The notes under the pieces: model-generated
What the model was told of the DNA's origin: nothing
What the model saw: only the letters and a program-made list of their open reading frames with translations
Databases searched by the model: none
Shown here: positions 1 through 14,887 of the stretch, in pieces
Layout: every line of letters starts with the position of its first letter
Numbering within the stretch: position 1 is the stretch's first letter
Position numbers and translations under genes: made by a program
NCBI GenBank assembly: GCA_018400335.1
Contig: JAGYMT010000008.1
Coordinates: 1-14,887 of the forward strand
Direction of reading: 5' to 3'
Length of the DNA stretch: 14,887 bases
Source: Kiritimatiellia bacterium
GTDB taxonomy: Bacteria > Verrucomicrobiota > Kiritimatiellia > JAAZAB01

Positions 1-81
1 GCAGACTGTCACCCGATTTTGAACCATGCCGGAATTCGCATTATGAATTGGACCAAGGTCGCGGGGGGGGCGGCCATAAGC

Positions 82-125
82 GATGAACCTTATGCATCAA
101 TGTTGTGTATTCATCATAATGCATC
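82..125 (+). promoter_or_regulatory. Candidate promoter and operator region of the hipBST operon
   Basis: CATAAT at 115-120 matches the sigma-70 -10 consensus at five of six positions, but no good -35 lies at the usual distance. The heptamer ATGCATC occurs at 92-98 and again at 119-125, the second copy overlapping the end of the -10 box. Each copy contains the palindrome ATGCAT. HipB proteins are known to repress their own operon by binding paired palindromic operators, so these repeats are reasonable operator candidates. A run of eight G residues lies just upstream at 63-70. The assignment is inferred from position and symmetry only. Confidence 0.35.
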
Positions 126-179
126 TGCTGGAAGATTTCACTTGCGTGATTGCCTAAAAGCAGTCTAGTATTCGTTGTG

Positions 180-383
180 ATGAAAACAAAGGAAGCAGGT
201 GACCTGATACGGAAGCGCCGTGGTGCACTGGGCATTGACCAACGCACGTTGAGCGAGATATCCGGGGTCGCCATCCACACGTTGAGCAACATCGAGGCCG
301 GGAAAGGCAATCCAACCGTGGCCACCCTTGACCGGGTGCTCAACGCGTTGGGCATGGAACTGCGCATCGAGATCAGGAAGTAG
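180..383 (+). CDS. hipB: HipB-like XRE-family antitoxin and repressor
   Basis: This 67-residue protein is almost entirely one helix-turn-helix domain of the XRE/Cro-C1 type. The DQRTLSEISGVAIHTLSNIEAG stretch (about residues 20-41) contains the turn and recognition helix, followed by the usual amphipathic tail (ATLDRVLNALGMELRIEI). Family members dimerise, bind operators in front of their own operon and take part in neutralising the HipA/HipT kinase. The ATG at 180 is preferred over the in-frame start at 150 because the extra ten residues precede the normal start of the fold. No strong Shine-Dalgarno is visible, so the start is moderately certain. The stop codon overlaps the ribosome binding site of the next gene, which indicates an operon with the two downstream HipA-family genes. 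Known HipB proteins are about 85-105 residues, so this one is short and lacks an extended C-terminal tail. Confidence 0.85.
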   Translation: MKTKEAGDLIRKRRGALGIDQRTLSEISGVAIHTLSNIEAGKGNPTVATLDRVLNALGMELRIEIRK

Positions 384-387
384 GAGA
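382..387 (+). promoter_or_regulatory. Ribosome binding site fixing the GTG start of hipS
   Basis: AGGAGA overlaps the hipB stop codon and lies 6 nt before the GTG at 394. It favours that GTG over an in-frame ATG at 328 that lies inside hipB. Confidence 0.6.
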
Positions 388-393
388 CAGGTC

Positions 394-723
394 GTGAGTC
401 GAAGCGGAAAAGTCTGCTGCCGAGGATCGCTTGCCGGACGTATCGAGGAGGCGCCGGACGGTTACCGCTTTACCTACGCCTCCGACTACCTGGCCTCAGC
501 GCAGTCCAAGCCCATCAGTCTGACGCTTCCAAGGCAAAGCGCACCCTATACATCGAAGACCCTATTTCCTTTCTTCTTCGGATTGCTGGCGGAAGGAATT
601 CTCAAAGAGACGCAGTGCCGCAAGCTGAAACTGGACGAGAATGACCATTTCGGCCGCCTGCTCAAGACGGCGAACAGCGACACCATCGGCGACGTCACCG
701 TGGTCGAGGAACCGGAGGCGTAA
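394..723 (+). CDS. hipS: HipS-like protein (stand-alone HipA N-terminal subdomain 1)
   Basis: This 109-residue protein matches the N-subdomain 1 that is fused to the kinase in classical HipA (the 'couple_hipA' type domain). Visible family features are the opening GKVCCRGSLAGRIEE strand pair, GYRFTYASDYL (residues 23-33), PISLTLP (40-46) and LFPFFFGLLAEGILKE (57-72). The start is the GTG at 394, chosen because of the AGGAGA site and because homologues begin at this point. In the E. coli O127 HipBST system the separate HipS is the antitoxin that binds the HipT kinase. By position and domain this protein should do the same, although here that is inferred. The LLAEGI motif has Ile where HipS-type proteins, as I recall them, often carry EGW, and the whole protein contains no Trp. 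It ends directly against the next ATG. Confidence 0.8.
   Translation: MSRSGKVCCRGSLAGRIEEAPDGYRFTYASDYLASAQSKPISLTLPRQSAPYTSKTLFPFFFGLLAEGILKETQCRKLKLDENDHFGRLLKTANSDTIGDVTVVEEPEA
714..718 (+). promoter_or_regulatory. Ribosome binding site fixing the hipT start
   Basis: GGAGG lies 5 nt before the ATG at 724, inside the last codons of hipS. It supports this start over the second in-frame ATG at 736 and argues that hipT is translated independently. Confidence 0.6.
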
Positions 724-1698
724 ATGTTCTACTGCATGTCAACACTGGCCGAGATCCCTCGCGAGGGCTACAGCGCCGCCGCGGAACGCCTGCTGGCCGG
801 CGGTAACCGCGCGTTCCCTTGTCGTTTGGCGTGCAACCGCGCCGATGTCATCGAGTTCCGTATCCGGGCTGCCGAGCATATGTCCATCTCCGGGATACAG
901 GACAAGATTTCGCTGAAGCTCATCCGCGGGAAGCTCGTTCCCGCGGAGAAGGACGGCGAGTACATCTTAAAGCCGATTCCGACTGCCGATATCCCCCGTT
1001 TCAAGGCCGACATACCGGCCAACGAACACCTCACGATGCAGATCGCATCGCAGGTCTTCGGCATCGCCACGGCGGTCAACGCGGTCATCCGTTTCGCTGA
1101 CGGCGAGCCGGCCTACATCACCCGCCGGTTTGACCGGCGCAACGGCGTGAAGATCGGGCAGGAGGACTTCTGCCAGTTGTCCAACCGGACCGAGGAGACG
1201 GCAGGCCGGAACTACAAGTACGACGGCAGCTACGAGGAGGCCGGTCGCATTCTGAAGCAGTACTGCAGTGCGTACCCCGTGGAAGTCGAGAAGCTCTTCG
1301 CCCGGATCGTGTTCAACTATATCATCTCGAACGGGGACGCGCACCTCAAGAACTTCTCGCTGCTCGAAAGCGAGTTCGGCGACTACATTCTGACGCCGGC
1401 CTACGACCTGATTTGCACGTCGTTGCACTTCCCCGACGAGTCCCGGACCGCCCTGGACATGTTCGACACGTTCGAGACCGAGAGCTTCCGGCGGAATGCG
1501 TTCTACAAACGGATGGACTTACTCAAACTGGCCGAGTTCTACGGCATGAACGCCGAACGAGCGGAGCGGTGTCTGCGCCACTTAGCCGACAGCGAGTCCC
1601 GCATCGTCGCTTTGATCGAACGCTCGTTCCTCTCCGAAAAGGCCAAAGCCGACTTCCGCGGTCGCTTCCATAACCGGCTGATGGCGATCGCGGACTGA
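724..1698 (+). CDS. hipT: HipT-like serine/threonine kinase toxin (HipA family, lacking N-subdomain 1)
   Basis: This 324-residue HipA-family kinase phosphorylates protein serine residues. Characterised relatives phosphorylate aminoacyl-tRNA synthetases (HipA on GltX, HipT on TrpS), which stalls translation. Visible elements are the Gly-rich loop MSISGIQDK with serines 54 and 56 (the SIS pair that is autophosphorylated in HipT), the ATP-binding lysine in YILKP (K83), the catalytic loop SNGDAHLKN (D205, N210) and the metal-binding LTPAYDL (D228). Its length is close to the roughly 335 residues of E. coli HipT and well below the 440 of HipA, because subdomain 1 is encoded separately upstream. 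The N-terminus (MFYCMSTLAEIPREGYS) resembles that of short HipT-type kinases, which argues against a frameshifted hipA. The ATG follows the hipS stop with no gap. The substrate cannot be read from sequence. Confidence 0.88.
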   Translation: MFYCMSTLAEIPREGYSAAAERLLAGGNRAFPCRLACNRADVIEFRIRAAEHMSISGIQDKISLKLIRGKLVPAEKDGEYILKPIPTADIPRFKADIPANEHLTMQIASQVFGIATAVNAVIRFADGEPAYITRRFDRRNGVKIGQEDFCQLSNRTEETAGRNYKYDGSYEEAGRILKQYCSAYPVEVEKLFARIVFNYIISNGDAHLKNFSLLESEFGDYILTPAYDLICTSLHFPDESRTALDMFDTFETESFRRNAFYKRMDLLKLAEFYGMNAERAERCLRHLADSESRIVALIERSFLSEKAKADFRGRFHNRLMAIAD

Positions 1699-1760
1699 CC
1701 CGACTGCGAGCAGACAACGCGGCTGAGTGCGCGCGAGACGGTTGCAAACGGCGTTCAGCC

Positions 1761-1785
1761 TGCCCGCGCGCGGAGCGCACGGGCA
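1761..1785 (+). terminator. Strong hairpin downstream of hipT, possible terminator
   Basis: Two 11-nt arms (1761-1771 and 1775-1785) pair with a single mismatch around a GGA loop and are very GC-rich. No T-run follows directly, so this is either a Rho-assisted terminator or an mRNA-stabilising stem. A second weak stem (1801-1805 with 1812-1816) is followed a few bases later by five Ts at 1824-1828. The rest of the spacer up to 1929 shows no gene. Confidence 0.35.
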
Positions 1786-1872
1786 AACATTAACGCTTGG
1801 TCTGCATAGAAGCAGATAACTTGTTTTTCATAGCAGTTTCTCGACATGCCGAGATTGTTGTGCCGATTGTTC

Positions 1873-1901
1873 TGGACGGGCGTTCGTGCCGATGTTACAG
1901 T
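1873..1901 (+). promoter_or_regulatory. Weak candidate promoter of the kinase operon
   Basis: TGGACG (1873-1878) and TACAGT (1896-1901) each match four of six sigma-70 consensus bases and are separated by 17 nt. They lie 28 nt upstream of the chosen kinase start. Such matches are common by chance, so confidence is low. Confidence 0.2.
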
Positions 1902-1916
1902 ACTCCGACATTTTTC

Positions 1917-1922
1917 TTGGAG
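1917..1922 (+). promoter_or_regulatory. Ribosome binding site choosing the kinase start
   Basis: TTGGAG lies 7 nt before the ATG at 1930. The in-frame ATG at 1846 has no such site, and the 28 residues it would add do not resemble a membrane-anchor N-terminus. Confidence 0.55.
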
Positions 1923-1929
1923 TGTGCGC

Positions 1930-4900
1930 ATGATTGACGGTTTCCTGAAATCAGTTCTATCCCGATTTGGCATGCCGCGTCGAATGGGGCTGTTCCTCCT
2001 GTTGCTTGCTGCCGGCGTGTTCTTCTGCTGGTGGGAGGTTTCGCGGTCGTCCGCGCGGATGAGGGAAAGCCTGCTGCTGCGGGCGGGCGTGGCGGGGCAA
2101 GCAATCAACCTGGAGCGCGTGAAGACGCTGCTGGCGCCGGAGCCCGATCTTTCGGGAGCCGACTATCTGCGCCTCAAGGAACAGCTGCTCTCGATACGCA
2201 TGGCCGACCCCAGTTGCCGCTTCGTCTACCTGCTCGGTCTTGAGCCTGATGGCGCAATCTATTTCATTGTTGATGATGTGCCGGCCGGACACGAGGACGA
2301 GGCGCTGCCTGGGACGATATATGACGACGCGCCGGCTGAGTTTCTCCACGTTTTTGACAGCCGGGTTCCCTTGACGATCGGACCGTACAAGGACCGCTGG
2401 GGAATATTTGTCAGTGCCGCGGTCCCGATCCTCGATCCGAAATCCGGCCAAGTCCTTGCTGTGCTGGGAATGGATATTGACTCCCGCGCGTGGATACTGG
2501 GCCTCGCTGCCGATTCGGCGTCCGTCGTGGCCTTGGTGCTCGCTTTGCTTGTCGTTGTGCTGGTGTTTCTGTTTGTCGTGCGCAGGGAACATGCCCCGCC
2601 CAAGCCGGTGCTCCTGCGCCTGATGCCGCCGCTGGCCTTCATCTTGGCAGCCTTAACCATCGGCGGGGGCTGGCTCCTGTGGCGGGAACATCAGGAACGA
2701 GTCCAGGAGCGAGTGCTGTATCAGATAGAGCAAGCCTCGCGCGAACTTGGCGTGGATATTGATAACCAGGCGGCCGGGATTGCAATGGCGCTGGCGCATA
2801 TAGTTGCGGATACTTCAGACCATCAGATGATGCGCAAGGGCGATGCGGAGGGACTTCTGGCGAAATGGAATCCGCTCTACGAGAAGTTGAATAAGGAAAA
2901 TTTCATAACGCATTTTTCGTTCATGGACACGAACCGTGTTGTCATGCTGCGTGTGCACAATCCGGAGCTGCGAGGTGACGTTGTAGACCGCTTCATTGCG
3001 CTGGAGGCTGAGCGAACGGGCGGGTTGTCGTATGGCATTGAGCCCGGGCCTCTGGGCACCTTCACACTTCGCGTGATTCAGCCGGTGTTCGATGCCGATG
3101 GTTTGGTTGGCTATATTCAGCTTGGAAAGGAAATTGAGGATATCCTCGAACGCCGCAGGAGAGCCGGCTCCGAATTGGCAATACTGATCAGGAAGCCCTT
3201 CGAAGTCAGGGAGACATGGGAAGCGGGCATGAAGGAGCTCGACAGGGAAGCGGACTGGGATAGGCTTCCTCACAGCGTGATTGTCTACGCATCTCAGATG
3301 CGGCTGCCGGATGTCTTCGATGAAATAGCCGATCACGATCCCCAGAGTGATTATCCGCATGGCAGCCCCGGACGGGAGTTCAATTACAATGGAAAAATAT
3401 GGCGGGCATCCGCGACATGTCTTAGCGATGCATCGGGAGCCGAAAGCGGTTGCCTGCTGGTGATGCATGATGTGACATCGGATCAGATTGCTTTCTGGCG
3501 GGTGTCCGTGCTGGCAGGAACGCTTGCTGCCGTTGTTCTCGTCGCCCTGCTGGGGTTTGTCTACGTGCTGCTTCGTCGCACCGATACCGGCATACTCGTC
3601 CAGCAGGCCAGGCTAAGGGAGAGCGATGAGCATCTGAGGGCAACACTGCGCTCCATCGGCGACGGTGTCATTGCAGCGGATGCGTCGGGCAGGATCACGA
3701 GCATCAACAGGATCGCCGAGAAGCTCACCGGATGGAGCTCGGATGAGGCAGTGGAAAGACCGGTTGACGAAGTTTTCAATATCATCAACGAGCTGACTCG
3801 CGAGAAGTCGAACAACCCTGTTGAGAGGGCGCTGCGCGAGGGCTTGATTGTGGGGCTAGCGAACCACACGGTGCTTATCGCGCGGGACGGAACGGAGCAT
3901 CAGGTTTCCGATAGCTGCGCCCCGATAATTGATGCCGACGGCAAGGTGACCGGCGCCGTCCTTGTCTTCCGCGATGTCAGCGAGGAGTATCGCCGCCGCG
4001 CGTGGGAACGCTTCGAGCTGCATTTCCAGCAGATTGTGGCGGATATTTCGGCGCGGTTCATAAGCCTCAAGGAGGACGATTTCGACAGGTCGGTTGACGA
4101 AGTTCTGGCCAGACTCGGCAAGTTGTTTCACGTGGATCGAGGCTACCTCTTCATGTTCTCGGAAGACCTCGTGACCATGGACAACACCCATGAATGGTGC
4201 GCGCCCGGAATCGTGCCGCAGAAGGACAAGGTCCAGAACTTCCCGGTGGACACCATGCCGTGGTGGAAGGCGGAGATCCTCAAGGGTGATCCGATATTCG
4301 TCAGGGATGTCAATGAACTGCCGCCGGAGGCTGATGCTGAGAAGAAGGAATTTCTCTCGCAATCCATCAAGTCGCTCGTTTGCCTGCCGATGTGCGGGGA
4401 GAGTGGAAAACTGATCGGATTCATGGGGTTCGACTCCGTCGGCGCCCGGCACGTGTGGCCGAGAAATCAGGTGCGCATGCTGAAGGTTGTCGCGGATATT
4501 ATCGCGAGGGCGATATCGAGAAGTGAGTCGCAAAAGGAATTACGCGAGAGCGAGTCCAGTTTGAAAGAAGCTCAGCAGATAGCCAAAATGGGGCGTTGGG
4601 ATCTCTTTCATGCGACGAACAAACTGAAGTGGGATGAGGTCATATTCGATACCTTCGAGATTACCCCGTCTGAGTTCAAAGCTTCATACGAGGCATTCCT
4701 GGCGGCAATCCATCCTGACGACCGCGAGATGGTGGATAAAGCATGGACCAAATCGCTGACCGATAAGCAGCCGTACATGATCGAACATCGGCTGCTGATG
4801 AATGACGGAAGAGTCAAGTGGGTCAACGAACGATGCCGGACGGATTTTGACGAAATAGGCAGGCCTGTGCATTCTGTCGGCGTTGTGCAGGATATCACGG

Positions 4901-7620
4901 AAGTCAAGAGGGAGATTATTTTCCGGGATATTGAAGGCGAGGCGCTCTCCATACTCAACAGTTCGGCTGATTTCAAGGTGTCGCTGAGCCGGATACTCAG
5001 GGCTATAAAGAAGCGAACAAGCTGTGACGCCGTTGGAATCCGTCTGCAGGACGGCGAGGATTTTCCGTATTTTGCTCAGGACGGCTTCCCGGAGAGTTTT
5101 CTCCTTTCCGAAAACTCGATAACTGCCCGTGATTCGAAGTCCGGCCTGTGCCGGAATCCCGATGGATCGGCTTGCCTGGAATGCACGTGCGGCCTGGTGA
5201 TTTCCGGGAAGACCGATCCGTCAAGCTCCATGTTCACGCCCGGCGGAAGCTTCTGGATAAACGATTCGAACGTTCTGCTCGACCTGCCGGAGAAAGAAGA
5301 CCCGCGGTATTGTCCGCGAAATGTGTGTATCCGAAGCGGCTATGCCTCGGTTGCATTGATCCCGATAAGGACAAGGGAGAAAATCGTCGGCCTTCTGCAG
5401 TTGAACGCAAAAGGAAAGGGATTGTTCTCCCCTTCCGCCATTCAGATCCTTGAGGGGATGGCATCCCATATCGGCGAGGCTCTGATGAGAAAACAAGCCG
5501 AGGATGCCCTTCGCGAGACCAATCTGCATCTTCAGGAGGCCACTATACGGGCAAATGAACTGGCGGAGAAGGCCGAGGCCGCCAACCTCGCGAAGAGCGA
5601 GTTCCTGGCCAATATGAGCCATGAAATACGGACGCCGATGAACGGGGTGATAGGAATGACCGGGCTGCTCCTCGATACGCGGCTTGCGGATGTACAGCGT
5701 CGTTACGCTGAGGCCGTGCGCGGAAGCGCGGAGGCCCTGATGCGGGTCGTGAATGATATTCTTGATTTCTCGAAGATCGAGGCAGGGAAGGTTGATGTGG
5801 AGGTTCTCGATTTCAACCTGCAGAACCTGCTTGACGATTTTGCCTCAACCATGGCGGTTTCGGCAGAGTCGAAGAAGATCGAACTTCTCTGTTCGGTTGA
5901 TCCGAAGTCCCCCGTTTTGCTCCGCGGCGACCCGGGCCGGCTTCGTCAGGTTCTGACTAATCTGACCGGCAATGCGATCAAGTTCACGCCCGAGGGCGGC
6001 GAAGTGGAGATTAGTGTCTGTCCGGACGGGGAAAACACGGATTGCGCGCGGCAGGCCGACCCCCCCGCAATCCGGCTGCGTTTCTCGGTGAGGGACACGG
6101 GAATCGGGATTCCCCGCGATAAGCAGTCTCTGTTGTTCAACAAGTTCACGCAGGTGGATGCTTCAACCACCCGCAAGTATGGCGGCACGGGCCTGGGTCT
6201 GGCGATCTCAAAAGAACTTGTGGCCATGATGGGCGGAGAAATAGGGGTGGATAGCGAGGTAGACAAAGGGTCTGATTTCTGGTTCACCGCATGTCTGGAA
6301 GTTCAGCCCCTCTCCGGCAGAGCGGACGATCCGCCGATGCGTGATCTTGATGGCGTGAGGGCGCTCATCGTGGACAATAATGAAACCGGGCGAGAGATTC
6401 TCTCGACCAGGTTGAGATCATGGGGAATGAGGACGTCGGAAGCAAGGGACGGGGGCGAGGCGCTCGATATCATGCGCCGCGCCGGCGAGGAAGGTGATCC
6501 CTTCCGCATTGCCCTTGTTGACATGCAGATGCCCGGCATGGACGGGGAGTCGTTGGGTCGGGCGATCAAGTCGGATGATAATCTCTCCGCAACCATCATG
6601 ATCATGCTGACCTCCATGGGCAAGGGCGAGCATCCTGAGCGCATAAGGGATATCGGGTTCGCGGATTATGCCATGAAGCCGGTTCCGCATGCGGAGCTGA
6701 AGAACATGCTGCAGCGCGCCTTGTCCGGGCGGGATGAGGAAGGCGCCGTCGCTGGTGCGGACGCAGGGCGCGAGGAGCGCGATACAACGGGCCTGTTCGC
6801 GGGGTGCAAGGCGCGGATACTGCTCGCGGAGGATAATATAACGAACCAGCAGGTTGCCCTTGGAATCCTCATGAAGATGGGGCTCGGCGCCGATGCTGTC
6901 GCAAACGGCGTCGAGGCGCTCAGCGCCGTTTCAACGCTCCCTTATGATCTCGTGCTTATGGATGTGCAGATGCCCGAGATGGACGGCCTGGAGGCGACGA
7001 GACAGATCAGGAATTTGAACATCAAACATCAAACATCAAACATCAAACATTCTTCCGATATCCCGATTATCGCCATGACCGCCTATGCGACGCGGGATGA
7101 TAAGGCCAAATGCATTAAGGCGGGAATGAACGACTTCGTGTCGAAGCCCGTGACGCCCGGCGCTCTGGCGGACGTGCTTGAGAAATGGCTTCCGGAAGGT
7201 GGGCGGACGGATAGCGGTCAGGGGGCAGTGGACAATGATCACGCCGCGGAAGACTCACCACAAAAGAAGGAAGGGTTGCCGCCGGTTTTCGACGAAGCGG
7301 CGCTGCTCGACAGGGTGATGGGCGACAAGGCGCTTGCTCGCAAGGTGGTGAACATTTTCGTCGAGGATATGCCGGTTCAGATCGAGTCGTTGCGCGATCG
7401 GCTTGAAGCGGGCGACGTAAAGGGCGTTGTGCACCAGGCTCACACGATCAAGGGCGCCGCGGCAAATGTGAGCGGTGAGCGCCTGCGCGCCGCCGCCTTC
7501 GATATCGAAAAGGCGGCCACTGCGGGAGATTTGTCTTCAGCGCGTGAGTCAATGTCGCGGATAGATGATGAGTTCAAAGCGTTGAAAATGGAGATCGAGA
7601 GCTGGAAGGAAATATTGTGA
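1930..7620 (+). CDS. Giant membrane hybrid histidine kinase with full phosphorelay
   Basis: This 1896-residue sensor has four membrane segments (about 20-37, 198-217, 233-251, 525-548), which leaves two extracytoplasmic sensor regions (38-197, and 252-520, which looks Cache-like). The cytoplasmic order is PAS (566-687), GAF (697-863), PAS (878-994), Cys-rich GAF (1003-1187), coiled coil, HisKA (H1231 in [11 protein letters not shown]), HATPase, two receivers and HPt. The HATPase shows N-box N1344 and N1348, G1 DTGIGIP at 1389 and G2 GGTGLGL at 1418. REC1 has D1531, T1561 and K1583; REC2 has D1635, D1678, T1717 and K1739. The HPt His is H1838 in AHTIKG. Phosphate would flow H1231 to a receiver Asp to H1838 and on to a separate regulator, most likely the overlapping downstream gene. 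REC1 reads VDNN, so the second acidic-pair residue is Asn. A 7-bp tandem repeat sits in REC2. The ligand is unknown. Confidence 0.93.
7018..7050 (+). repeat. Heptanucleotide tandem repeat inside the kinase REC2 domain
   Basis: The unit AACATCA repeats 4.7 times without error. Seven is not a multiple of three, so three units are read as seven different residues. The translation therefore shows a [14 protein letters not shown] pattern at residues 1697-1710. The insert falls in the loop between the phospho-Asp helix (TRQIRN) and the IPIIAMTA strand, which is surface-exposed in receivers and tolerant of length change. The reverse-strand unit TTTGATG differs by one base from TTGGATG in the spacer arrays near 11000-11140. 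Confidence 0.9.
7606..7610 (+). promoter_or_regulatory. Ribosome binding site for the GTG start of the response regulator
   Basis: AAGGA lies 6 nt before the GTG at 7617, within the last codons of the kinase. It supports a GTG start that overlaps the kinase stop (GTGA). Confidence 0.6.
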
Positions 7621-8234
7621 GAATACTTATAGCCGAAGATGATTCCACTTCACGCACAATGCTCGTGGGCGTGCTGAAGAGAAACGGGCATGATGTGCAG
7701 GAAACGGTTAATGGGGTTGAAGCATGGGAGATTCTGCGTGAGCCCTCAGCGCCGAAACTGGCGATCCTGGACTGGATGATGCCCGAGATGGACGGATTGG
7801 AGGTTGTCCGGCGGGTCCGGGGGTTGAGCACCGACCGCCAGCCGTATATCATAATGCTCACCGCGAAGGGCGGCAGGGCCGACCTTATAGCCGGATTGGA
7901 CGCGGGAGTGAATGAGTACCTCACGAAGCCGCTCGATATCGCCGAACTGCGCGCCCGCGTGGAGGTGGGCCGGCGGATGGTTGACATGCAGGAGGCGCTG
8001 GCGGCTAAGGTCGAGGAGTTGCACAAAGCGCTCGAGGATATCAAGACCTTGCGCGGCATAATCCCGATCTGCGCGAACTGCAAGAAAATACGCGACGATA
8101 AGGGCTACTGGAATCAGGTGGAGGTCTACGTCCGCAAGCATTCGGAGGCGGAATTCAGCCATGGCATATGCCCGGATTGCGCGAAAAAGCTGTATCCCGA
8201 TCTCTACCCGAAAATTGCCAATGAGCTGAAGTAG
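7617..8234 (+). CDS. Response regulator: receiver domain with C-terminal zinc-ribbon-like tail
   Basis: This 205-residue protein has a complete receiver domain at residues 1-120: acidic pair D8 and D9, phospho-acceptor D52 in LDWMMPEMDG, T82 and K104 in YLTKP. A short coiled linker (about 122-144) follows. The tail, LRGIIPICANCKKIRDDKGYW and onward, ends in HGICPDCAKKLYPDLY. Its C152-x2-C155 and C185-x2-C188 pairs look like one zinc site. This tail is a recurring C-terminal module of PAS, GAF and REC signalling proteins whose function I do not know. There is no DNA-binding, GGDEF, EAL or HD-GYP output. The GTG start overlaps the kinase stop by 4 nt, so the two are translationally coupled and this is the likely phosphate acceptor of the kinase HPt domain. 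Confidence 0.9.
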   Translation: MRILIAEDDSTSRTMLVGVLKRNGHDVQETVNGVEAWEILREPSAPKLAILDWMMPEMDGLEVVRRVRGLSTDRQPYIIMLTAKGGRADLIAGLDAGVNEYLTKPLDIAELRARVEVGRRMVDMQEALAAKVEELHKALEDIKTLRGIIPICANCKKIRDDKGYWNQVEVYVRKHSEAEFSHGICPDCAKKLYPDLYPKIANELK

Positions 8235-8251
8235 TTCATCGCTCGTCAATG

Positions 8252-8335
8252 CCCGGGACCGCCGAGCACCAGCTCGGCACGGAGAGGGAAGAGGCCCATC
8301 GGTGAAATGCCGAGCTGGTGCTCGGCGGTCCCGGG
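8252..8335. repeat. 28-bp perfect inverted repeat between convergent genes
   Basis: The arms 8252-8279 and 8308-8335 are exact reverse complements across 28 bp, with a 28-nt loop. Each arm also folds on itself (GCCGAGC-ACCA-GCTCGGC in the left arm). It lies between the 3' ends of the response regulator (+) and acs (-), where it could stop transcription from both sides, although there is no T-run. Twenty-four bases of the right arm recur at 14839-14862, so this is a copy of a dispersed palindromic element and not only a local terminator. Confidence 0.9.
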
Positions 8336-8396
8336 GGTGGAAATGCAACCGCGAGAAGAGCCTTATCCCGTTCTCCGTTCATTTTTCTCCAGGTGT

Positions 8397-10718
8397 TCAC
8401 CCCTCATCGCCGCTGAGCTGCGCGATTACGTTGAAATCCTCGAGCGTGGTCACATCCCCGGAAATCTCGACTCCCGCGGCGATCTGTTTCAGCAGTCGGC
8501 GCATGATCTTTCCGGAGCGCGTCTTGGGCAGGGCCTGCGCGAACCGGATCTCGTCGGGCTTCGACACAGGTCCGAGCTCCTTGCCCACGTGCGCCCTGAG
8601 CTCGTCTCTCAGCGTGTCGCTCGGCTTGGCGTCGGCACGCAGCGAGACGAAAGCCACCAGACCCGAGCCCTTCATGTCGTCGGGTCTGCCGACCACCGCT
8701 GCCTCGGCTACCGCCGGATGGCTCACGAGCGCGCTCTCGACCTCCGCAGTGCCGATGCGGTGGCCTGAGACGTTTATCACGTCGTCAATGCGGCCCATGA
8801 TCCAGAAGTAACCGTCCTTATCCTGCCTGGCCCCGTCGCCCGTGAAGTAGCTGCCCGGCACGTCGCTCCAGTAGGTCCAGCTGAACCGCTCTCTGTCGCC
8901 CCACACCCCGCGCAGCATGCTCGGCCACGGCTTGCGCAGCACCAACTTGCCTCCGTGGTTGGCGCTTACGGGGTTGCCGTCGTCCGTTAGAACCTCGGGG
9001 TGGACGCCGAAGAACGGGACCCCGGCGGAGCCCGGCTTGCAAGCCATGGCGCCGGGCAGAGTTGTTATCATTATGCTGCCGGTCTCAGTTTGCCACCACG
9101 TATCAACGATGGGGCAGCGGCCGCCGCCTATGACCTTGTGATACCACATCCAGGCGTGGGGATTGATCGGCTCGCCAACGGTGCCGAGCAGCCTGAGCGA
9201 GGAGAGATCGTGCTTGTCGACCCATTCGTCGCCCCATTTGATGAAGGCGCGGATGGCGGTCGGCGCGGTGTAGAAAATGGTGACGCGATGGCGCTGGACG
9301 ATGCTCCAGTAGCGGTCCTTTTCGGGGAAGTTGGGTGCGCCCTCGTACATTAGGATCGTCGTGCCGTTCGCCAGCGGACCGTAGACGATGTAGCTGTGCC
9401 CCGTGATCCATCCTATGTCCGCGGTGCACCAGTAGATATCGTCTTCGCGGATGTCGAAGACGTGTTTGTGCGAGAGCTTTGCGCCGAGCAGGTAGCCGGC
9501 GGTCGTGTGATATATCCCCTTCGGCTTGCCTGTCGAGCCGCTCGTGTAGAGGATGAACAGGGGATCCTCGCTCTCCATTTCCTCGGGCGGACAATCGGCG
9601 CCGGCCTTCTTCATCTCGTCGTCCCACCACACATCGCGCCCGGCCACCATACCCGCTTCGTGCGCGGTCCTCCGGAAGACGATGACCTTCTGTATTGATT
9701 CACAGAGCAGCTTGCCTTCCGCGTTCTTTATAAGGAAGGAATCGTCAACGTTCTTCTTGAGCGGAACGATCGCACCGCGCCGGTATCCGCCGTCGGCTGT
9801 TATGATCAGGCTGGCCTTGCTGTCGTGCACTCTGTCGGCAATGGCCTGCGCGCTGAATCCGCCGAAAATCACTGAGTGAATCGCGCCTATTCGAGCGCAG
9901 GCGAGCATTGCGACAACAGCCTCGGGAATCATGGGCATATAGATGATGATCCTGTCGCCCTTGCCCGCGCCGTTCTGCTTGAGCACGTTTGCGAACCTGC
10001 TGACGGAGTCATGCAATTGACGGTATGTTATTCTGCATATCTCCGCCGGCGCCCCGTCCTCTTTCACCGGTTCGCTTTCCCATATGATCGCGGTCTTGTC
10101 GGCAACCGCGGTTTCGAGGTGCCTGTCGAGGCAGTTGTGCGCCACGTTCAGGCGTCCGCCATGGAACCACTTTGAGTCCGGCGCCTCCCACTCGCACACC
10201 TTGTCCCATCTCCTGAACCATTCAACATGCTCCTCGGCCTGTTCGGCCCAGAACTGTTCCGGATCCTCAATGGACTGCCGGTAGAGCCTCTTGTATTCAT
10301 CGTCCGACGAAATAGCGGAGCCCTCGCTGAAGCCGGCCGGCGGATGAAACATCTTCGTTTCATGCTGCGCGCTCTCAATCTCGGAGCCCGAATCAGCGAT
10401 GAGCTGCTCGAGTCCCGATGTCCTGATAATCTCCGTGATAAAGGGGTTGGCGTTGACGATCGAGAAGTTACCGCGCTTTACCCGCTTGGCGCATCTCAGG
10501 ACCACTCTGATGAACGCGGATGAAAGGTATTCGACCTTGCCGAGATCGAACACTATCTTCATCTTATCGTCCGCCTTGCCCTGGAACCCGGAGCCGGTCA
10601 ACTCCTTGAGCTTCGCCTCGACGGAGTTGGAAAGCTCCGTGCATTGCTCGCTTCCGAGGTGACCTTCGAATACACACGTCAATAAGTCTGTTCCGGCATC
10701 ATGTTTGAATGAGAGCAT
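8397..10718 (-). CDS. acs: Acetyl-CoA synthetase with N-terminal STAS domain
   Basis: This 773-residue protein makes acetyl-CoA from acetate, ATP and CoA through an acetyl-AMP intermediate. From about residue 138 on it is a full-length Acs: the N-terminal segment [19 protein letters not shown], the P-loop [11 protein letters not shown] (391-401), the WWQTETG motif, the YFTGDGA and [13 protein letters not shown] hinge region, and [11 protein letters not shown] with catalytic K737, the lysine acetylated in other Acs enzymes. Residues 1-108 form a separate STAS-like fold ([53 protein letters not shown]) of the anti-sigma-factor-antagonist type, with S66 and S67 at the position of the phosphorylated Ser. 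Normal Acs is about 650 residues, so the extra 120 are the fusion. The start is the second ATG, which has GGAG 6 nt upstream; an ATG at 10730 would add four residues. Confidence 0.93.
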
Positions 10719-10724
10719 ATTTTT

Positions 10725-10728
10725 CTCC
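10725..10728 (-). promoter_or_regulatory. Ribosome binding site choosing the acs start
   Basis: GGAG on the minus strand lies 6 nt before the ATG at 10718. The first ATG (10730) overlaps this site and has only an A/C-rich sequence in front of it. Confidence 0.5.
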
Positions 10729-10748
10729 ATGTTGTTGTTTTCGAAAGA

Positions 10749-10778
10749 ATCATTCAGAGTTCAGGTTTTAGGTGTCAG
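10749..10778 (-). promoter_or_regulatory. Weak candidate acs promoter overlapping heptamer repeats
   Basis: On the minus strand CTGACA (10778-10773, five of six -35 bases) is followed after 18 nt by AATGAT (10754-10749, four of six -10 bases), about 30 nt before the acs start. A second CTGACA lies one heptamer upstream (10785-10780). The -35-like hexamers are part of the GTGTCAG repeats. Confidence 0.25.
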
Positions 10779-10785
10779 GTGTCAG
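10751..10785. repeat. Degenerate heptamer array upstream of acs
   Basis: Five consecutive 7-mers read CATTCAG, AGTTCAG, GTTTTAG, GTGTCAG and GTGTCAG. All end in AG and the phase is exact. The array resembles the short tandemly repeated repetitive (STRR) heptanucleotides described in filamentous cyanobacteria, and it shares the 7-bp period of the other arrays in this window. Confidence 0.7.
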
Positions 10786-10793
10786 TCTGGCCT

Positions 10794-10816
10794 CCGGGCG
10801 CGATGCCCGGGTTTTT
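10794..10816 (+). terminator. Terminator-like hairpin with T-run
   Basis: CCGGGC (10794-10799) pairs with GCCCGG (10805-10810) around a 5-nt loop, followed by GTTTTT. On the plus strand this is an intrinsic-terminator shape, yet no plus-strand gene ends here. It could stop antisense read-through into rnd or simply be part of the repeat cluster. Confidence 0.3.
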
Positions 10817-10826
10817 CATGGGACTG

Positions 10827-10898
10827 ATTGTCCTTGTTTCTGGAGACGGCGGTCCCCGCCGTTTCCCATCCGGCCGGGACGGCCGGCTCCAGGACAAT
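10827..10898. repeat. Structured repeat folding as a three-way junction
   Basis: ATTGTCC (10827-10833) pairs with GGACAAT (10892-10898), and TGGAG (10841-10845) with CTCCA (10887-10891), closing a stem with a 7-nt one-sided bulge. Inside lie two hairpins with perfect 7-bp stems: 10846-10852 with 10856-10862, and 10870-10876 with 10880-10886, each with a 3-nt loop. The hairpins abut the closing stem on both sides and are separated by 7 nt. This nested pairing is unlikely by chance and suggests a mobile palindromic element or a structured RNA. Confidence 0.6.
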
Positions 10899-11001
10899 GG
10901 CTATCTGGTATTGTATTTCTATGATTTGCATATGTTCTCAGAGACAAGGGTTTAGTGGCGGTCCCTGAGCGGATATCGGGTTTTTCAGGGAGACTGAATA
11001 A

Positions 11002-11147
11002 CCAACAGCCAACAGTCCCAACATCCAATGTCCAAGGAAAGATGAGAGAGAATAGAGAATGACATGTCCCCGGGATGGCCATTCGTAAAGCTCTCTCACT
11101 TGGGAGTTGGAAATGCCTTGTTGGATATTGGGTGTTCATGTTTACAG
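11002..11147. repeat. Opposed heptamer arrays forming an imperfect inverted repeat
   Basis: CCAA occurs at 11002, 11009, 11018, 11025 and 11032 (steps of 7, 9, 7, 7). Its complement TTGG occurs at 11100, 11107, 11121 and 11128 (steps of 7, 14, 7), with the 7-nt phase continuing to about 11147. Between them TGAGAGAG (11042-11049) and CTCTCTCA (11091-11098) are exact complements, so the whole unit folds into a long imperfect stem. It directly follows the 3' end of rnd. The layout resembles a MITE-like or hairpin repeat made of 7-mers. Confidence 0.65.
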
Positions 11148-11162
11148 TAGTTATGGCTTGAA

Positions 11163-12353
11163 TCAACTTTTCATCGGTGCAGTAGCGCCGTCTCCTTCCG
11201 CCACGGAGAACCGCTCGCGGAAATCAGTCCACAGAACCTTTCTCTGCCAATCGCGGACCTGCGACGCCAATTCGGCGGGCAATGTCCTTCCCGCATTCCG
11301 TGCGCACCATCCGATTACGTCGTTCGAAAGAAGCAGGTAGGGCTCGATGTCAAGCCCGCTCGCGATATCGGCCCGCCACTTCTGCATGGCTTTGAGCCGA
11401 TTGCCGTAGCCGGGCGTTGATCTCGGGCGATATGCGCGGCTCGGATGTCTTTCTTCGGGCCCGGCCGCCCCCCTGCTGACCGCCTCGATCAGGCGCGTGG
11501 AATTGGACTCGCGGTAGATCGCGGGGTGGAGGCCCGGTATCTTCTGAATGTCAGTTGCCGTCCGCGGCGGTTTGACGGCCATTTCAACGAGGATCTTGTT
11601 CCTGATCAGGAAGTGTACGGGGCGGCCGAGCTTCCTGGCAAGCTGATCCCGGAATTCCGCCAGCTCCCTCAGAACGGCAAGCTGCCGTCCGTTCAGCGCC
11701 GTGCTGCCCTTGATTCTGGTGTGCGGGGCCGGTTCGTCCGGAGAGTCCTCAAATGTCTCGAGCAGCTTGAATTCCTCCTGCGCCCACGAAAGCCTGTCCA
11801 GCTCGGTCAGCCGCCTTTCGAGAATGTCCTTGAGATCGAACAGAAAACGGGTGTCTCGGGCCGCATAGTCGAGCGCGTCCCTGCGGAGGGGGCGCTTCAG
11901 CCAATCAATTCGCTGGAATTTCTTGTCGGTCTTGACGTTCAGCAGTTCGTCCAGCAGGCTGCCAAGTCCGTACTGTCTGAACCCGCAGAACTGGGCGGCA
12001 AGCTTGGTGTCGAAGAACCTGTTCAAGTTCCACTTATAAACCTGCCGGCAGGCGCGCTTGTCGAAATCGGCGTCGTGAATGATAAGTTCCACGCCGGGAT
12101 TGGTAAGCATCGCGCCCAGCGGGGCAAGATCAATCTTGGAAAGCGGATCGAAGACGAAGGTCTGGCCGTCGCGGATGGAGACCTGGACGAGCGCAATGTG
12201 AAGGCCGTAATGATGGCAATGGTTTTCCATCTCGAGATCCAGGGCCAACTCCGAGACACCGGCTAGTCTCTCCGCGGCCGCGCTCATGGCGCCGGTGTTA
12301 TCAATCAGTTCGTATGCCTGTTCTTCCTGCATTATTCTCTCTTCACTATTCAT
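11163..12353 (-). CDS. rnd: Ribonuclease D
   Basis: This 396-residue protein is a 3'-to-5' exoribonuclease of the DEDDy family that trims the 3' ends of tRNA precursors and other small RNAs in the cytoplasm. The catalytic residues are in place: LDLEMEN (D39, E41), HDADFD (D98), and the Exo III motif LDYAARDTRF (Y163, D167). An HRDC domain for RNA binding follows (about residues 217-295, RQLAVLRELAEFRDQLARK and onward to IPGLHP). The C-terminal 100 residues would include the second HRDC-like bundle of E. coli RNase D. Length is close to E. coli's 375. The start at 12353 is chosen because its ATG overlaps the fmt stop as ATGA, a typical coupled arrangement. An in-frame ATG at 12332 with GAAGAGAG upstream is a possible alternative. 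It is the last gene of the operon. Confidence 0.93.
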   Translation of the reverse strand: MNSEERIMQEEQAYELIDNTGAMSAAAERLAGVSELALDLEMENHCHHYGLHIALVQVSIRDGQTFVFDPLSKIDLAPLGAMLTNPGVELIIHDADFDKRACRQVYKWNLNRFFDTKLAAQFCGFRQYGLGSLLDELLNVKTDKKFQRIDWLKRPLRRDALDYAARDTRFLFDLKDILERRLTELDRLSWAQEEFKLLETFEDSPDEPAPHTRIKGSTALNGRQLAVLRELAEFRDQLARKLGRPVHFLIRNKILVEMAVKPPRTATDIQKIPGLHPAIYRESNSTRLIEAVSRGAAGPEERHPSRAYRPRSTPGYGNRLKAMQKWRADIASGLDIEPYLLLSNDVIGWCARNAGRTLPAELASQVRDWQRKVLWTDFRERFSVAEGDGATAPMKS

Positions 12354-13297
12354 AATGGAAGCTGCTCTCCCGTCCGAATGCCATGACCGCAAATGAAGGC
12401 TGATCCGCTCATGATCCTGCGGCCTTCCGGCTGCACCTCCAGGAGTCGGAGTCCGCCGTTGCCCGTGATGATTAACGGGCCCGGTCCGGATGTTTCCAGC
12501 ACAACGCCCGGCGATATCGCTGCGCCCGATGATTCGATTGTTTCAACGCGCGTCTTGAAAACGCGCACCGTTGCGCCGCCGGCGCGCTCGAAGAAGCAGC
12601 CCGGCCGGGGGTTGAAGCCGCGAACCCTGTTGTGCAGTTCAGTCGCGGGCTTGATCCAGTCGAGTCTTCCGTCCAGTTTGGCAAGCTTTGGCGCGAAAGT
12701 GGCTTCGGATTCAACCTGCGGCGTTCCATCGAGGCTGCCGCAGCGCGCGCGGTCGAGCGTGCGCGCGAGCAATTCCGCGGCAAGCGGCGCAAGCCTTTCG
12801 CCGAGGGTGGCGGCTGTGTCGTCGGCCCTTATCTCCGCGGTTGCGCCGTCAATTATGTCGCCGGTGTCCATACCCTCGTTCATAAACATGGCCGTAACGC
12901 CGGTCGCGGTCTCGCCGCGCGCGATTGCCCACTCAATGGGCGCCGCGCCCCGGTACTTTGGAAGCAGGGATGTGTGCATATTGATACAGCCCAGCGGCGG
13001 AATGCCGAGCAGCGGCGCTTTGAGTATCTGACCGTAGGCGACCACCGCTATGAGTTCGGGACGAAGCTCGCGGATTTCCCGGATGCTTGTGTCGTCGTTG
13101 ACGTTGCGCGGTGTCAGGACCGGAATCTCGCTTCCATGGACAAGCGCGCGAACGGGACAGGGCGCCACCGTGAGTTTTCGTCCCTTCGGCCTGTCCGGCT
13201 GGGTGACGACCGCGGCCAGGACGTCGGCGTCCGCCGAGATGATTCTCTCCAGGCACGGACACGCCAGTGCGGCTGAACCCATGAAGATAATACGCAT
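12350..13297 (-). CDS. fmt: Methionyl-tRNA formyltransferase
   Basis: This 315-residue enzyme transfers a formyl group from 10-formyl-tetrahydrofolate to initiator Met-tRNA, allowing bacterial translation initiation. The N-terminal Rossmann-like domain begins MRIIFMGSAALA. The active-site segment INMHTSLLPKYRGAAPIEWAI carries N106 and H108, and GMDTGDI carries D144, matching the E. coli catalytic triad in both identity and numbering. The C-terminal domain (about 205-300, PKLAKLDGRLDWIKPATELHNRVRGFNPRPGC) is the usual tRNA-binding OB-like fold, and the length is normal for the family. GAGGAA lies 11 nt upstream of the ATG, a slightly long spacing. Only 18 nt separate it from the fumarase beta stop, and its own stop overlaps the rnd start by 4 nt. 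Confidence 0.96.
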   Translation of the reverse strand: MRIIFMGSAALACPCLERIISADADVLAAVVTQPDRPKGRKLTVAPCPVRALVHGSEIPVLTPRNVNDDTSIREIRELRPELIAVVAYGQILKAPLLGIPPLGCINMHTSLLPKYRGAAPIEWAIARGETATGVTAMFMNEGMDTGDIIDGATAEIRADDTAATLGERLAPLAAELLARTLDRARCGSLDGTPQVESEATFAPKLAKLDGRLDWIKPATELHNRVRGFNPRPGCFFERAGGATVRVFKTRVETIESSGAAISPGVVLETSGPGPLIITGNGGLRLLEVQPEGRRIMSGSAFICGHGIRTGEQLPL

Positions 13298-13315
13298 TTT
13301 TCGGTCTATTCCTCG

Positions 13316-13888
13316 TTAAATGAGCATTGCGGCAACAGCGCGTTCGGATTCGCGCAGAATGCGCTCATGCAGACTGTTCCCATGCGCGTCCATCGTGACG
13401 ATGGCCGGGAAATCTTCCACATCAAGTTCCCACATCGCCTCCGCCGTCCCGAATTCATCGAGAAAGTGCACGGAAACAACTCTTTTGATTTTATCCGCCA
13501 GCACCTGCGCGGCGCCTCCGACCGCATGAAGGTAGGCGCATCCGTGTTTCGCGCAGGCGGCAAGCGTGTCCTTTCCCATGCCGCCTTTTCCGATCACCAG
13601 TCCGATCTTGTGGTCCTTGATGATCCGCGGCATGAAGCGCTCTTCCCTCGCGGAGGTCGTGGGCCCGGCCGCGCGGACCGCCCACCTGTTGTTCTCGCGA
13701 ACGACCACGGGGCCGCAATGATATATAGCGCAGGCTTTCAAGGAAACGGATGACCTTCCGCCCTTGAACAGGTGTTCGTGCAGCCTGTCGCGTCCGGTAA
13801 CGATCCTGCCGGAGATGTTCACGAGGTCGCCCGTGGCCAGCTTGCGCACCTTTGCTGAAGTGAATGGATATGTCAGTTCATGAATCAT
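13316..13888 (-). CDS. Class I fumarate hydratase beta subunit
   Basis: This 190-residue protein is the C-terminal half (TtdB/FumB-C type) of the oxygen-sensitive 4Fe-4S class I fumarase, which interconverts fumarate and malate in the TCA cycle. Family features are KVRKLATGDLVNISGRIVTGRD (residues 12-33), AIYHCGPVVV, AAGPTTSAREERFMPRII, GLVIGKGGMG, a conserved ACAKHGCAYLHAVGGAAQ segment, and VEDFPAIVTMDAHGNSLH near the end. The ATG at 13888 is preferred because it overlaps the alpha stop as TAATG and matches where homologues start; an ATG at 13897 would add three residues. No clear Shine-Dalgarno is visible, so translation probably depends on coupling to alpha. A tartrate dehydratase beta subunit is the main alternative reading, but the metabolic setting favours fumarase. 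Confidence 0.9.
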   Translation of the reverse strand: MIHELTYPFTSAKVRKLATGDLVNISGRIVTGRDRLHEHLFKGGRSSVSLKACAIYHCGPVVVRENNRWAVRAAGPTTSAREERFMPRIIKDHKIGLVIGKGGMGKDTLAACAKHGCAYLHAVGGAAQVLADKIKRVVSVHFLDEFGTAEAMWELDVEDFPAIVTMDAHGNSLHERILRESERAVAAMLI

Positions 13889-14781
13889 TACAGCCATTTC
13901 AGAATATTGCCGCGACGGGCGTTCATGACGATGCCGCCCCGGCGGCAGGCCCAGCACATATAGGCAAGGCTCACAAAATAACTTGCCGGCAACCGGCTGA
14001 GCGCCGCTATTTGCACCCCGATCAGGGTGGTGGCGCCGCCGAAACCCATGGGGCCGATGCCCGTGGCGTTGGCGTCTTTCAGGATCAGTCTCTCCAGGCG
14101 CGCCAGGTTCCGGTTCGGGGAAACATCGTTGAGCTTTCTCAAAAGCTGTTGCTTGGCAAAATCGGCGCCGGCAGCCCGGTCGCCGCCCACGCAGATTCCG
14201 AGAATGCCGGGCGCACAGCCCATTCCCTGTGCGCGCCACACGGCGTCCAGCGCGCACCTGCGTACGCCGTCCCAATCCCTGCCGGCCTTGAGGGACGTAT
14301 CAGGAAGACTGTATTGCGCACTCACGTTCTCGCTGCCGCCGCCCTTCATGAGAAGCCTCAATTCCACTACGGCTTTGGCGCCATATTGAACGTGAATGGC
14401 GGGAGCGCCGGCCCCTATGTTCGTGGCGCGTGATACATTAGTGAGCGTGTCTATCGTGTTCTGCCTCAGACAGCCCTGTTCCGTTGCTCGCGCCACTGCC
14501 GACCGTATCGCGCCGCTCACGCCCTCGACGTCAAAGCCCGCGGGAACCTTGAGGTAGAAATGAAGAGAACCGGTGTCCTGACAGATCGGAAGCGACCGCG
14601 CTTTCGCCGCGCGCACGTTTTCGAGGATGGTGTCCAGCGCCCATTGCGCGGTGGAATTCTTCAATTCCCTGTTTCTGGCCCGCCTGACGGCCGACTCGAT
14701 ATCGGTCGGGAGTTCGGACGAAGTCTTACATATAAGCCGGGTGAGATTGTCTTCCCAGATGTTCCATTCTTTTGAGGCCAT
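13888..14781 (-). CDS. Class I fumarate hydratase alpha subunit
   Basis: This 297-residue protein is the iron-sulfur half of two-subunit class I fumarase (or, less likely, L-tartrate dehydratase). Likely 4Fe-4S ligands are C67 in LPICQDTG, C189 in MGCAPGILGICVGGD and C276 in AYMCWACRRG. Other signatures are NIGAGAPAIHV, MKGGGSENVSA and GIGPMGFGGATTLIG. Length fits the 280-300 residues typical of the separate alpha chain. The ATG at 14781 is chosen because homologues start near MASKEW; a GTG at 14823 would add 14 unremarkable residues that run toward the repeat. GCGGA two nt before the ATG is a poor ribosome binding site. TTGCAC and CAAAAT, 17 nt apart, lie immediately upstream and could give a nearly leaderless message, but this is speculative. 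It leads the fumarase-fmt-rnd operon. Confidence 0.92.
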   Translation of the reverse strand: MASKEWNIWEDNLTRLICKTSSELPTDIESAVRRARNRELKNSTAQWALDTILENVRAAKARSLPICQDTGSLHFYLKVPAGFDVEGVSGAIRSAVARATEQGCLRQNTIDTLTNVSRATNIGAGAPAIHVQYGAKAVVELRLLMKGGGSENVSAQYSLPDTSLKAGRDWDGVRRCALDAVWRAQGMGCAPGILGICVGGDRAAGADFAKQQLLRKLNDVSPNRNLARLERLILKDANATGIGPMGFGGATTLIGVQIAALSRLPASYFVSLAYMCWACRRGGIVMNARRGNILKWL

Positions 14782-14834
14782 AATCCGCACATTTTGGCTT
14801 CCCGCGGGATGATGTGCAAGCACATTCTGAAAAA

Positions 14835-14887
14835 GGTGGCCGAGCTGGTGCTCGGCGGTCCCAGGGACGGGTAGGGTGGTGGCCGAG
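14835..14887. repeat. Dispersed palindromic repeat copy upstream of fumarase, cut by the window end
   Basis: Positions 14839-14862 are identical to 24 bases of the right arm of the inverted repeat at 8308-8335, including the self-pairing GCCGAGC and GCTCGGC and the core GGCGGTCCC. A second unit starts 43 nt later: GGTGGCCGAG at 14878-14887 repeats 14835-14844, and the window then ends. This shows at least a partial tandem arrangement in the same orientation. Confidence 0.85.

Follow-up and report, generated by a model that had tools for sequence, protein, structure and literature searches.

The window, by which we mean the whole stretch of DNA analysed, covers 14,887 nt of a Kiritimatiellia bacterium (GenBank assembly GCA_018400335.1, contig JAGYMT010000008.1, positions 1 to 14,887), and its minus strand carries an open frame (8397..10730) that encodes 777 amino acids when counted from the first ATG. 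The second ATG, at 10718, has a GGAG 5 nt upstream and aligns with Met1 of the relatives P0002 and P0003, which makes it the better start and gives a product of 773 amino acids. This protein consists of an N-terminal STAS domain, a linker and an acetyl-CoA synthetase (Acs), as outlined in Table 1.

Table 1. Coordinates of the STAS-Acs gene and its parts in the window, and of acetaldehyde-CoA dehydrogenase (AcDH) genes of relatives in which the presumed catalytic cysteine is replaced.
Feature	Position	Strand	Basis or remark
STAS-Acs fusion gene	8397..10718	-	773 aa plus stop; open reading frame, Pfam, NCBIfam, homologue alignment
STAS domain, residues 1-110	10389..10718	-	
Ser67 codon	10518..10520	-	aligned with the SpoIIAA phosphorylation site
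Linker, residues 109-115	10374..10394	-	pLDDT under 50 at 109-111
Complete acetyl-CoA synthetase, residues 113-773	8400..10382	-	Pfam, NCBIfam, structure comparison
Lys737 codon, inside LPKTRSGK motif	8508..8510	-	alignment to Acs
Inverted repeat (28 bp, perfect) where the response-regulator and acs genes converge	8252..8335	.	sequence
AcDH without Cys (relative)	L120:2478-4184	+	Phe
AcDH without Cys (relative)	L123:7084-8562	+	Leu
AcDH without Cys (relative)	L201:5857-6999	+	Phe
AcDH without Cys (relative)	L221		Asn

A sequence-only reading of this DNA, whose coordinates end at this second ATG, had proposed a STAS domain fused in frame ahead of a complete Acs, and domain searches bear this out. 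Over the first 130 residues from the first ATG, the STAS family PF01740 matched at E 4.6e-6 with 26.8 bits, passing its cut-off of 22.6 as it also did on the whole protein (23.0 bits), while STAS_2 (PF13466; 2.3e-6, 28.1 bits) fell just below its cut-off of 29.2 and is nevertheless listed for this protein in its database record. In the Pfam search of the whole protein, the STAS matches are confined to the first 111 residues and are followed by ACAS_N, AMP-binding and AMP-binding_C, with no domain matched ahead of STAS; the membrane transport domain that precedes STAS in SulP/SLC26 proteins likewise found no Pfam match in this protein. The NCBIfam model TIGR02188 (acetate--CoA ligase) matches over its full length with 991 bits against an equivalog cut-off of 724.95, and the alignment to Acs 2p2m over residues 127-768 retains an 18-residue core motif as well as LPKTRSGK. 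We take Lys737 in the latter motif to correspond to Lys609, the acetylatable lysine in Salmonella Acs, which is named in the title of PDB 1pg3.

The join could in principle be an artefact, either of mis-assembly or of a true translation start at Met123, close to the start near residue 130 that had been named earlier as a way for the STAS segment to fall outside the enzyme. The window protein does have a methionine at position 123, yet it is Val in both aligned relatives (P0002, P0003), and the N-terminus is conserved. Of 98 other Acs loci, some of them cut at contig edges, 82 have their closest in-frame ATG 1-13 residues upstream of where the match to residues 113-773 begins; this distance is 16-31 residues in nine, and seven have no such ATG. 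STAS therefore precedes a whole, intact Acs N-terminus. Met123 as the true start is rejected on its non-conservation and on the start positions at these other loci, and mis-assembly because 13 further proteins, two of which are incomplete, show this junction in separate records. An artefact is thus already refuted as the general case, and its remaining probability is negligible.

STAS-Acs is a conserved enzyme family of certain Verrucomicrobiota. How widespread the fusion is had been left to a survey, which found 14 such proteins, the incomplete two included, namely that of the window, two metagenomic proteins and those of 11 genomes in two classes of the phylum, besides one degenerate relative (G158). 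When residues 1-140 were compared with 5.8 billion proteins, the window protein and two others were returned, both metagenomic full-length fusions with 74 and 73% identity overall and 61 and 57% over residues 1-140. Among 288 genomes of the phylum the fusion was found in G170 and G140, with G158 as the third. Within the class of G170 it occurs in 8 of 240 genomes, seven times in a single frame (in G310 with a damaged 5' end) and once, in G381, split across two contig ends, while a search of 197 genomes from the class of G140 found it in three (E 1e-250). Both classes share their phylum with Spartobacteria LR76 (G001); judging by class size and the rarity of Acs, they are perhaps Kiritimatiellia and Lentisphaeria, which is a guess. 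In Planctomycetota, profile A3 matched none of 246 genomes at E 1e-15, a weak negative from a set with no positive control. Two candidates were rejected, as L054 (match to query 31-772) has a stop between the two parts and the match that suggested an extended Acs at L096 runs across a stop.

In a tree of 108 Acs cores, all 14 fusions fall on one branch with a support of 100 among Verrucomicrobiota enzymes, and this single branch persists after adding G158 and dropping two long rows, the Acs of G158 nesting within the fusion clade. The N-terminal domain of G158 (L238) is degenerate, with an hhalign probability of 40% and E 2.9e-4 against at least 0.14 for five shuffles, and Pro-Asp replaces the conserved Ser pair. 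The STAS profile found nothing in frame with Acs at 116 further Acs or Acs-like loci (115 without G158; some cut at contig edges), one of which has a distant STAS gene. Among ten full-length members, pairwise identity is 61-92% for Acs and 30-82% for STAS, the STAS domain diverging faster. In a tree of this short, fast-evolving domain alone, which does not indicate the small STAS from which the fused ones came, the fused domains are not a clade (two changes) and unite in 5% of 200 bootstrap trees; the stand-alone P0007 and two genes of G311 and G336 fall among them. This counts against a simple single event, and the STAS domain may have been swapped later within the family.

The predicted structure agrees with a STAS fold for the N-terminal part, as the sequence-only reading had assumed. 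A first prediction from three sequences (mean pLDDT 40.5) is usable for the STAS part only, while a second from 42 sequences reached a mean pLDDT of 85.0 and a pTM of 0.81 and gives no domain-domain orientation. In these models the STAS part resembles SpoIIAA/RsbV; the fold-match lists are filled mostly by Acs and related ligases, and the best-listed STAS folds in them are kinase-bound single-domain SpoIIAA and RsbV. Both S66 and S67 had been placed at the SpoIIAA phosphorylation site, and this holds for Ser67, which aligns with the first Ser of DSSG (Ala in 1tid_B) and is Ser in all 46 aligned relatives, but not for S66, which lies off the site and varies. Since profile or word similarity decided which sequences entered this set, from which 5 of 21 database matches and the damaged G310 domain were excluded, the invariance of Ser67 is partly selected. 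The motif D-S-S/T-G, which we take to surround the phosphorylation site of SpoIIAA/RsbV antagonists and which reads DSSG in the aligned structure, is absent from the window protein, where S66-S67-A68-F69 has Ser for Asp and Phe for Gly.

Partner switching, also suggested in the earlier reading, would need a kinase and a phosphatase. Among the scanned window genes neither HATPase_c_2 (RsbW-/SpoIIAB-type kinase) nor a SpoIIE-type phosphatase was matched, and hence no adjoining cognate kinase is seen. In all nine fusion genomes searched, a census that leaves out G482, G449 and G158, both families are present, HATPase_c_2 with 1-7 and SpoIIE with 2-13 matches each, compared with 6 and 4 of 14 control genomes, respectively. 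Since both families are widespread, their presence proves nothing about STAS-Acs as a substrate. The fold, Ser67 and these genes keep partner switching in play, while the lack of either domain among the scanned window genes and the loss of the serine in G158 speak against it. In G381, a Ser/Thr protein kinase gene (L170 1985-4696, +) lies directly ahead of the STAS-Acs gene.

In six genomes (G303, G306, G308, G310, G353 and G449), STAS-Acs shares a cluster with an AcDH, which is of the AdhE N-terminal type and has no alcohol dehydrogenase half. The gene order is AcDH, small STAS, STAS-Acs, all on one strand, in G306, G308 and G449, and AcDH, STAS-Acs, small STAS in G303. STAS-Acs of G353 is divergent from AcDH and its small STAS, while the AcDH of G310 is damaged and continues into STAS-Acs. 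At this last locus (L125, around 5770-5800 and 6641), a deletion, either real or an assembly error, seems to have joined the two genes with loss of the end of AcDH and the start of STAS-Acs, and the AcDH also has an in-frame stop. The fusion of G140 lies a few bases after an iron alcohol dehydrogenase gene. No AcDH lies near STAS-Acs at five loci with flanking sequence, those of the window, G170, G305, G140 and G482, four of which (all except G140) have no neighbour of the alcohol dehydrogenase or AcDH type, and G170 and G305 gave no AcDH match at E 1e-120.

The linkage is seen more broadly from the side of the dehydrogenase. Searches with the G353 AcDH found single-domain AcDHs at seven loci in the class of G170, where G306 has a further copy broken by a contig end. 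In the class of G140 another 15 loci turned up, and 14 of them (all but G060:C48) were examined. The 22 examined AcDHs form one clade (support 100/99), and STAS adjoins every one of them. In 19, the next gene downstream, on the same strand and no more than 104 nt away, encodes a small STAS; the gene after AcDH is STAS-Acs in G303 and G310; and in G229 (L215:1147-2943, -), AcDH carries a C-terminal STAS domain in one 599-residue frame, a second enzyme-STAS fusion. Of 39 AdhE loci found, 24 were examined; five of these have an upstream STAS gene and form one clade, and none of the 19 of the commoner type has STAS beside it, where the scan covered ~1.5 kb either side of the match at 15 loci and some others lie near contig ends. 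The cysteine that aligns between the AcDHs and AdhE 6ahc, presumably the catalytic nucleophile, is retained in 18 of the 22 AcDHs and replaced in four, by Phe in G303 and G306, Leu in G308 and Asn in G063. These four keep their STAS neighbour, three of them in a cluster with STAS-Acs, and G303, G306 and G308 retain an AdhE with the cysteine.

Small STAS genes also accompany other enzymes. The class of G170 holds 16 stand-alone STAS genes at E 1e-17 or better, with neighbours that are AcDH (seven), ilvD (three), a homocysteine S-methyltransferase/MTHFR fusion (two), HATPase_c_2 (one) or unclear (three). The STAS gene directly follows ilvD in three genomes, including G311 and G307 (L161, L164, L165), and the homocysteine S-methyltransferase/MTHFR gene in two (L166, L173), while in G303 a small STAS of the same group lies ~0.5 kb after the HATPase_c_2 gene. 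A bacterial microcompartment was considered as the setting and rejected as a general one, since the shell family PF00936 is present in only 2 of 11 fusion genomes searched.

With a probability of roughly 0.5, we propose that the STAS domain serves Acs as a tag for docking and regulation, probably phosphorylated on serine, tying the enzyme to the acetate/acetaldehyde/ethanol node. The N-terminal domain, with its predicted SpoIIAA/RsbV fold, would put Acs into the same STAS-based assembly or switch as AcDH, which would join through its own small STAS partner encoded beside it, and acetate activation and the acetaldehyde/ethanol branch would then be controlled together. Control would most likely be exerted by phosphorylation of Ser67 by an RsbW-type kinase and reversed by a SpoIIE-type phosphatase, with the phosphorylation state changing the binding partners of the domain and possibly the activity or location of the enzymes. 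That two enzymes sharing acetyl-CoA are each found fused to this kind of domain, and that STAS adjoins AcDH at every locus examined, suggests physical association, and a phospho-switched dock is the leading mechanism because of the conserved serine and the SpoIIAA/RsbV fold. The earlier idea that acetate activation is recruited to a regulatory assembly is in this sense partly supported, as it fits a stable STAS-Acs family and the small STAS beside AcDH. For the other complex named there, searches that were not aimed at it gave no sign of ACP or lipid synthesis. Against the proposed tag stand the five loci without a nearby AcDH, the lack of a match to a partner-switch kinase or phosphatase among the scanned window genes, the degenerate domain of G158, the faster divergence of STAS than of Acs and the STAS-only tree.

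Some of the same observations may be read differently. STAS-STAS contacts, as in a stressosome, might constitutively join Acs, AcDH and AdhE into a C2 metabolon with no phospho-switch, and such a scaffold would account for one kind of domain being fused to Acs and AcDH alike and also encoded next to the genes of AcDH and of one AdhE clade. It is favoured by G158, which retains the domain region despite losing the serine, and by the four AcDHs without the cysteine, whose genes and STAS neighbours persist, as they would if these proteins had a structural role. Yet Ser67 is invariant in the aligned set while position 66 varies, and the best-listed STAS folds are kinase-bound proteins, which leaves a purely structural role doubtful. 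Information could also flow outwards, with Acs as the sensor and STAS as an anti-anti-sigma factor that informs an RsbW-type kinase and a sigma factor of the acetate or acetyl-CoA state; the fold, Ser67, the RsbW-type genes in all nine genomes searched and the G303 STAS gene close to HATPase_c_2 agree with this. However, of the 16 stand-alone STAS genes that come closest in the class of G170, 12 accompany AcDH, ilvD or MTHFR-type genes and only one a kinase, and we regard this direction of signalling as unlikely. Finally, the short linker, similar in length across the aligned full-length fusions, might allow STAS to sense a ligand such as a nucleotide or acyl-CoA and to act allosterically on the attached enzyme with no protein partner, but it would then be unexplained why AcDH, ilvD and MTHFR-type genes have separate STAS genes next to them, making this a very improbable role.

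The tag on Acs may be one of several. A set of enzymes of central carbon and one-carbon metabolism (Acs, AcDH, one AdhE clade, IlvD and homocysteine-methyltransferase/MTHFR) might each have a dedicated STAS, fused or encoded with them, through which shared RsbW-type kinases and SpoIIE-type phosphatases would switch or assemble the enzymes together; we put this forward tentatively, and, if true, the direct targets of partner switching would be enzymes instead of sigma factors. The chief known roles of STAS proteins are those of sigma-factor switches and anion-transporter tails, and Acs is controlled by lysine acetylation, to which control by STAS would add a further layer. STAS-Acs and the STAS-linked AcDH clade suggest a switch of the sigma-factor type that directly controls enzymes of the acetyl-CoA node, and point to an unrecognised control of two-carbon metabolism that offers small, defined proteins and one serine as targets.

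Compared with SpoIIAA and RsbV, which are STAS-only anti-anti-sigma factors, the window STAS is fused to a metabolic enzyme, departs from the phosphorylation motif and has no RsbW-type gene among the scanned window genes, while the Acs part resembles Acs/AcsA (TIGR02188) over its full length and in its core motifs and differs by the extra N-terminal STAS. Binding of STAS proteins to enzymes has precedents. The anti-anti-sigma factor HsbA of Pseudomonas aeruginosa, when Ser-phosphorylated, binds the enzyme HsbD (PMC5085249); this is a diguanylate cyclase, a separate protein and outside central metabolism. In SULTR1;2, the STAS domain binds O-acetylserine(thiol)lyase, and the activity of this enzyme rises (PMC4212615); the STAS domain of YchM/DauA is found with ACP (PMC5703999). 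There, STAS likewise binds metabolic proteins but is part of a membrane transporter, whereas in the window it is fused to an enzyme that has no membrane domain match. Stressosomes (RsbR/RsbS) use STAS proteins as an assembly (PMC9237128). Their marks include a sensor domain N-terminal to STAS and RsbT as partner kinase; the window protein differs in having no domain ahead of STAS. In the open-access literature, subscription papers being outside the scope, no paper on STAS-Acs or STAS-AcDH was found, in line with the earlier remark that no characterised example was known, and nothing linked a STAS domain with Kiritimatiell- taxa. Open-access papers pairing a STAS domain with aldehyde dehydrogenase were, in the portions available, unrelated, and the accessible part of a review of STAS-only proteins (PMC8256260) contains no word beginning 'enzyme', 'metabol' or 'fused'.

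Three further features of the window are of note. The inverted repeat downstream of the fusion gene is a possible two-way terminator, judging from its sequence. On the plus strand, the HipA N-terminal and C-terminal domains occupy two adjoining frames (400-723 and 724-1698), a split HipA-type arrangement. Also on the plus strand, a tandem ACATCAA-type word lies in frame at 7018-7056 in the last receiver domain of a 1924-aa hybrid histidine kinase, and looks like an intergenic repeat inserted into the gene.
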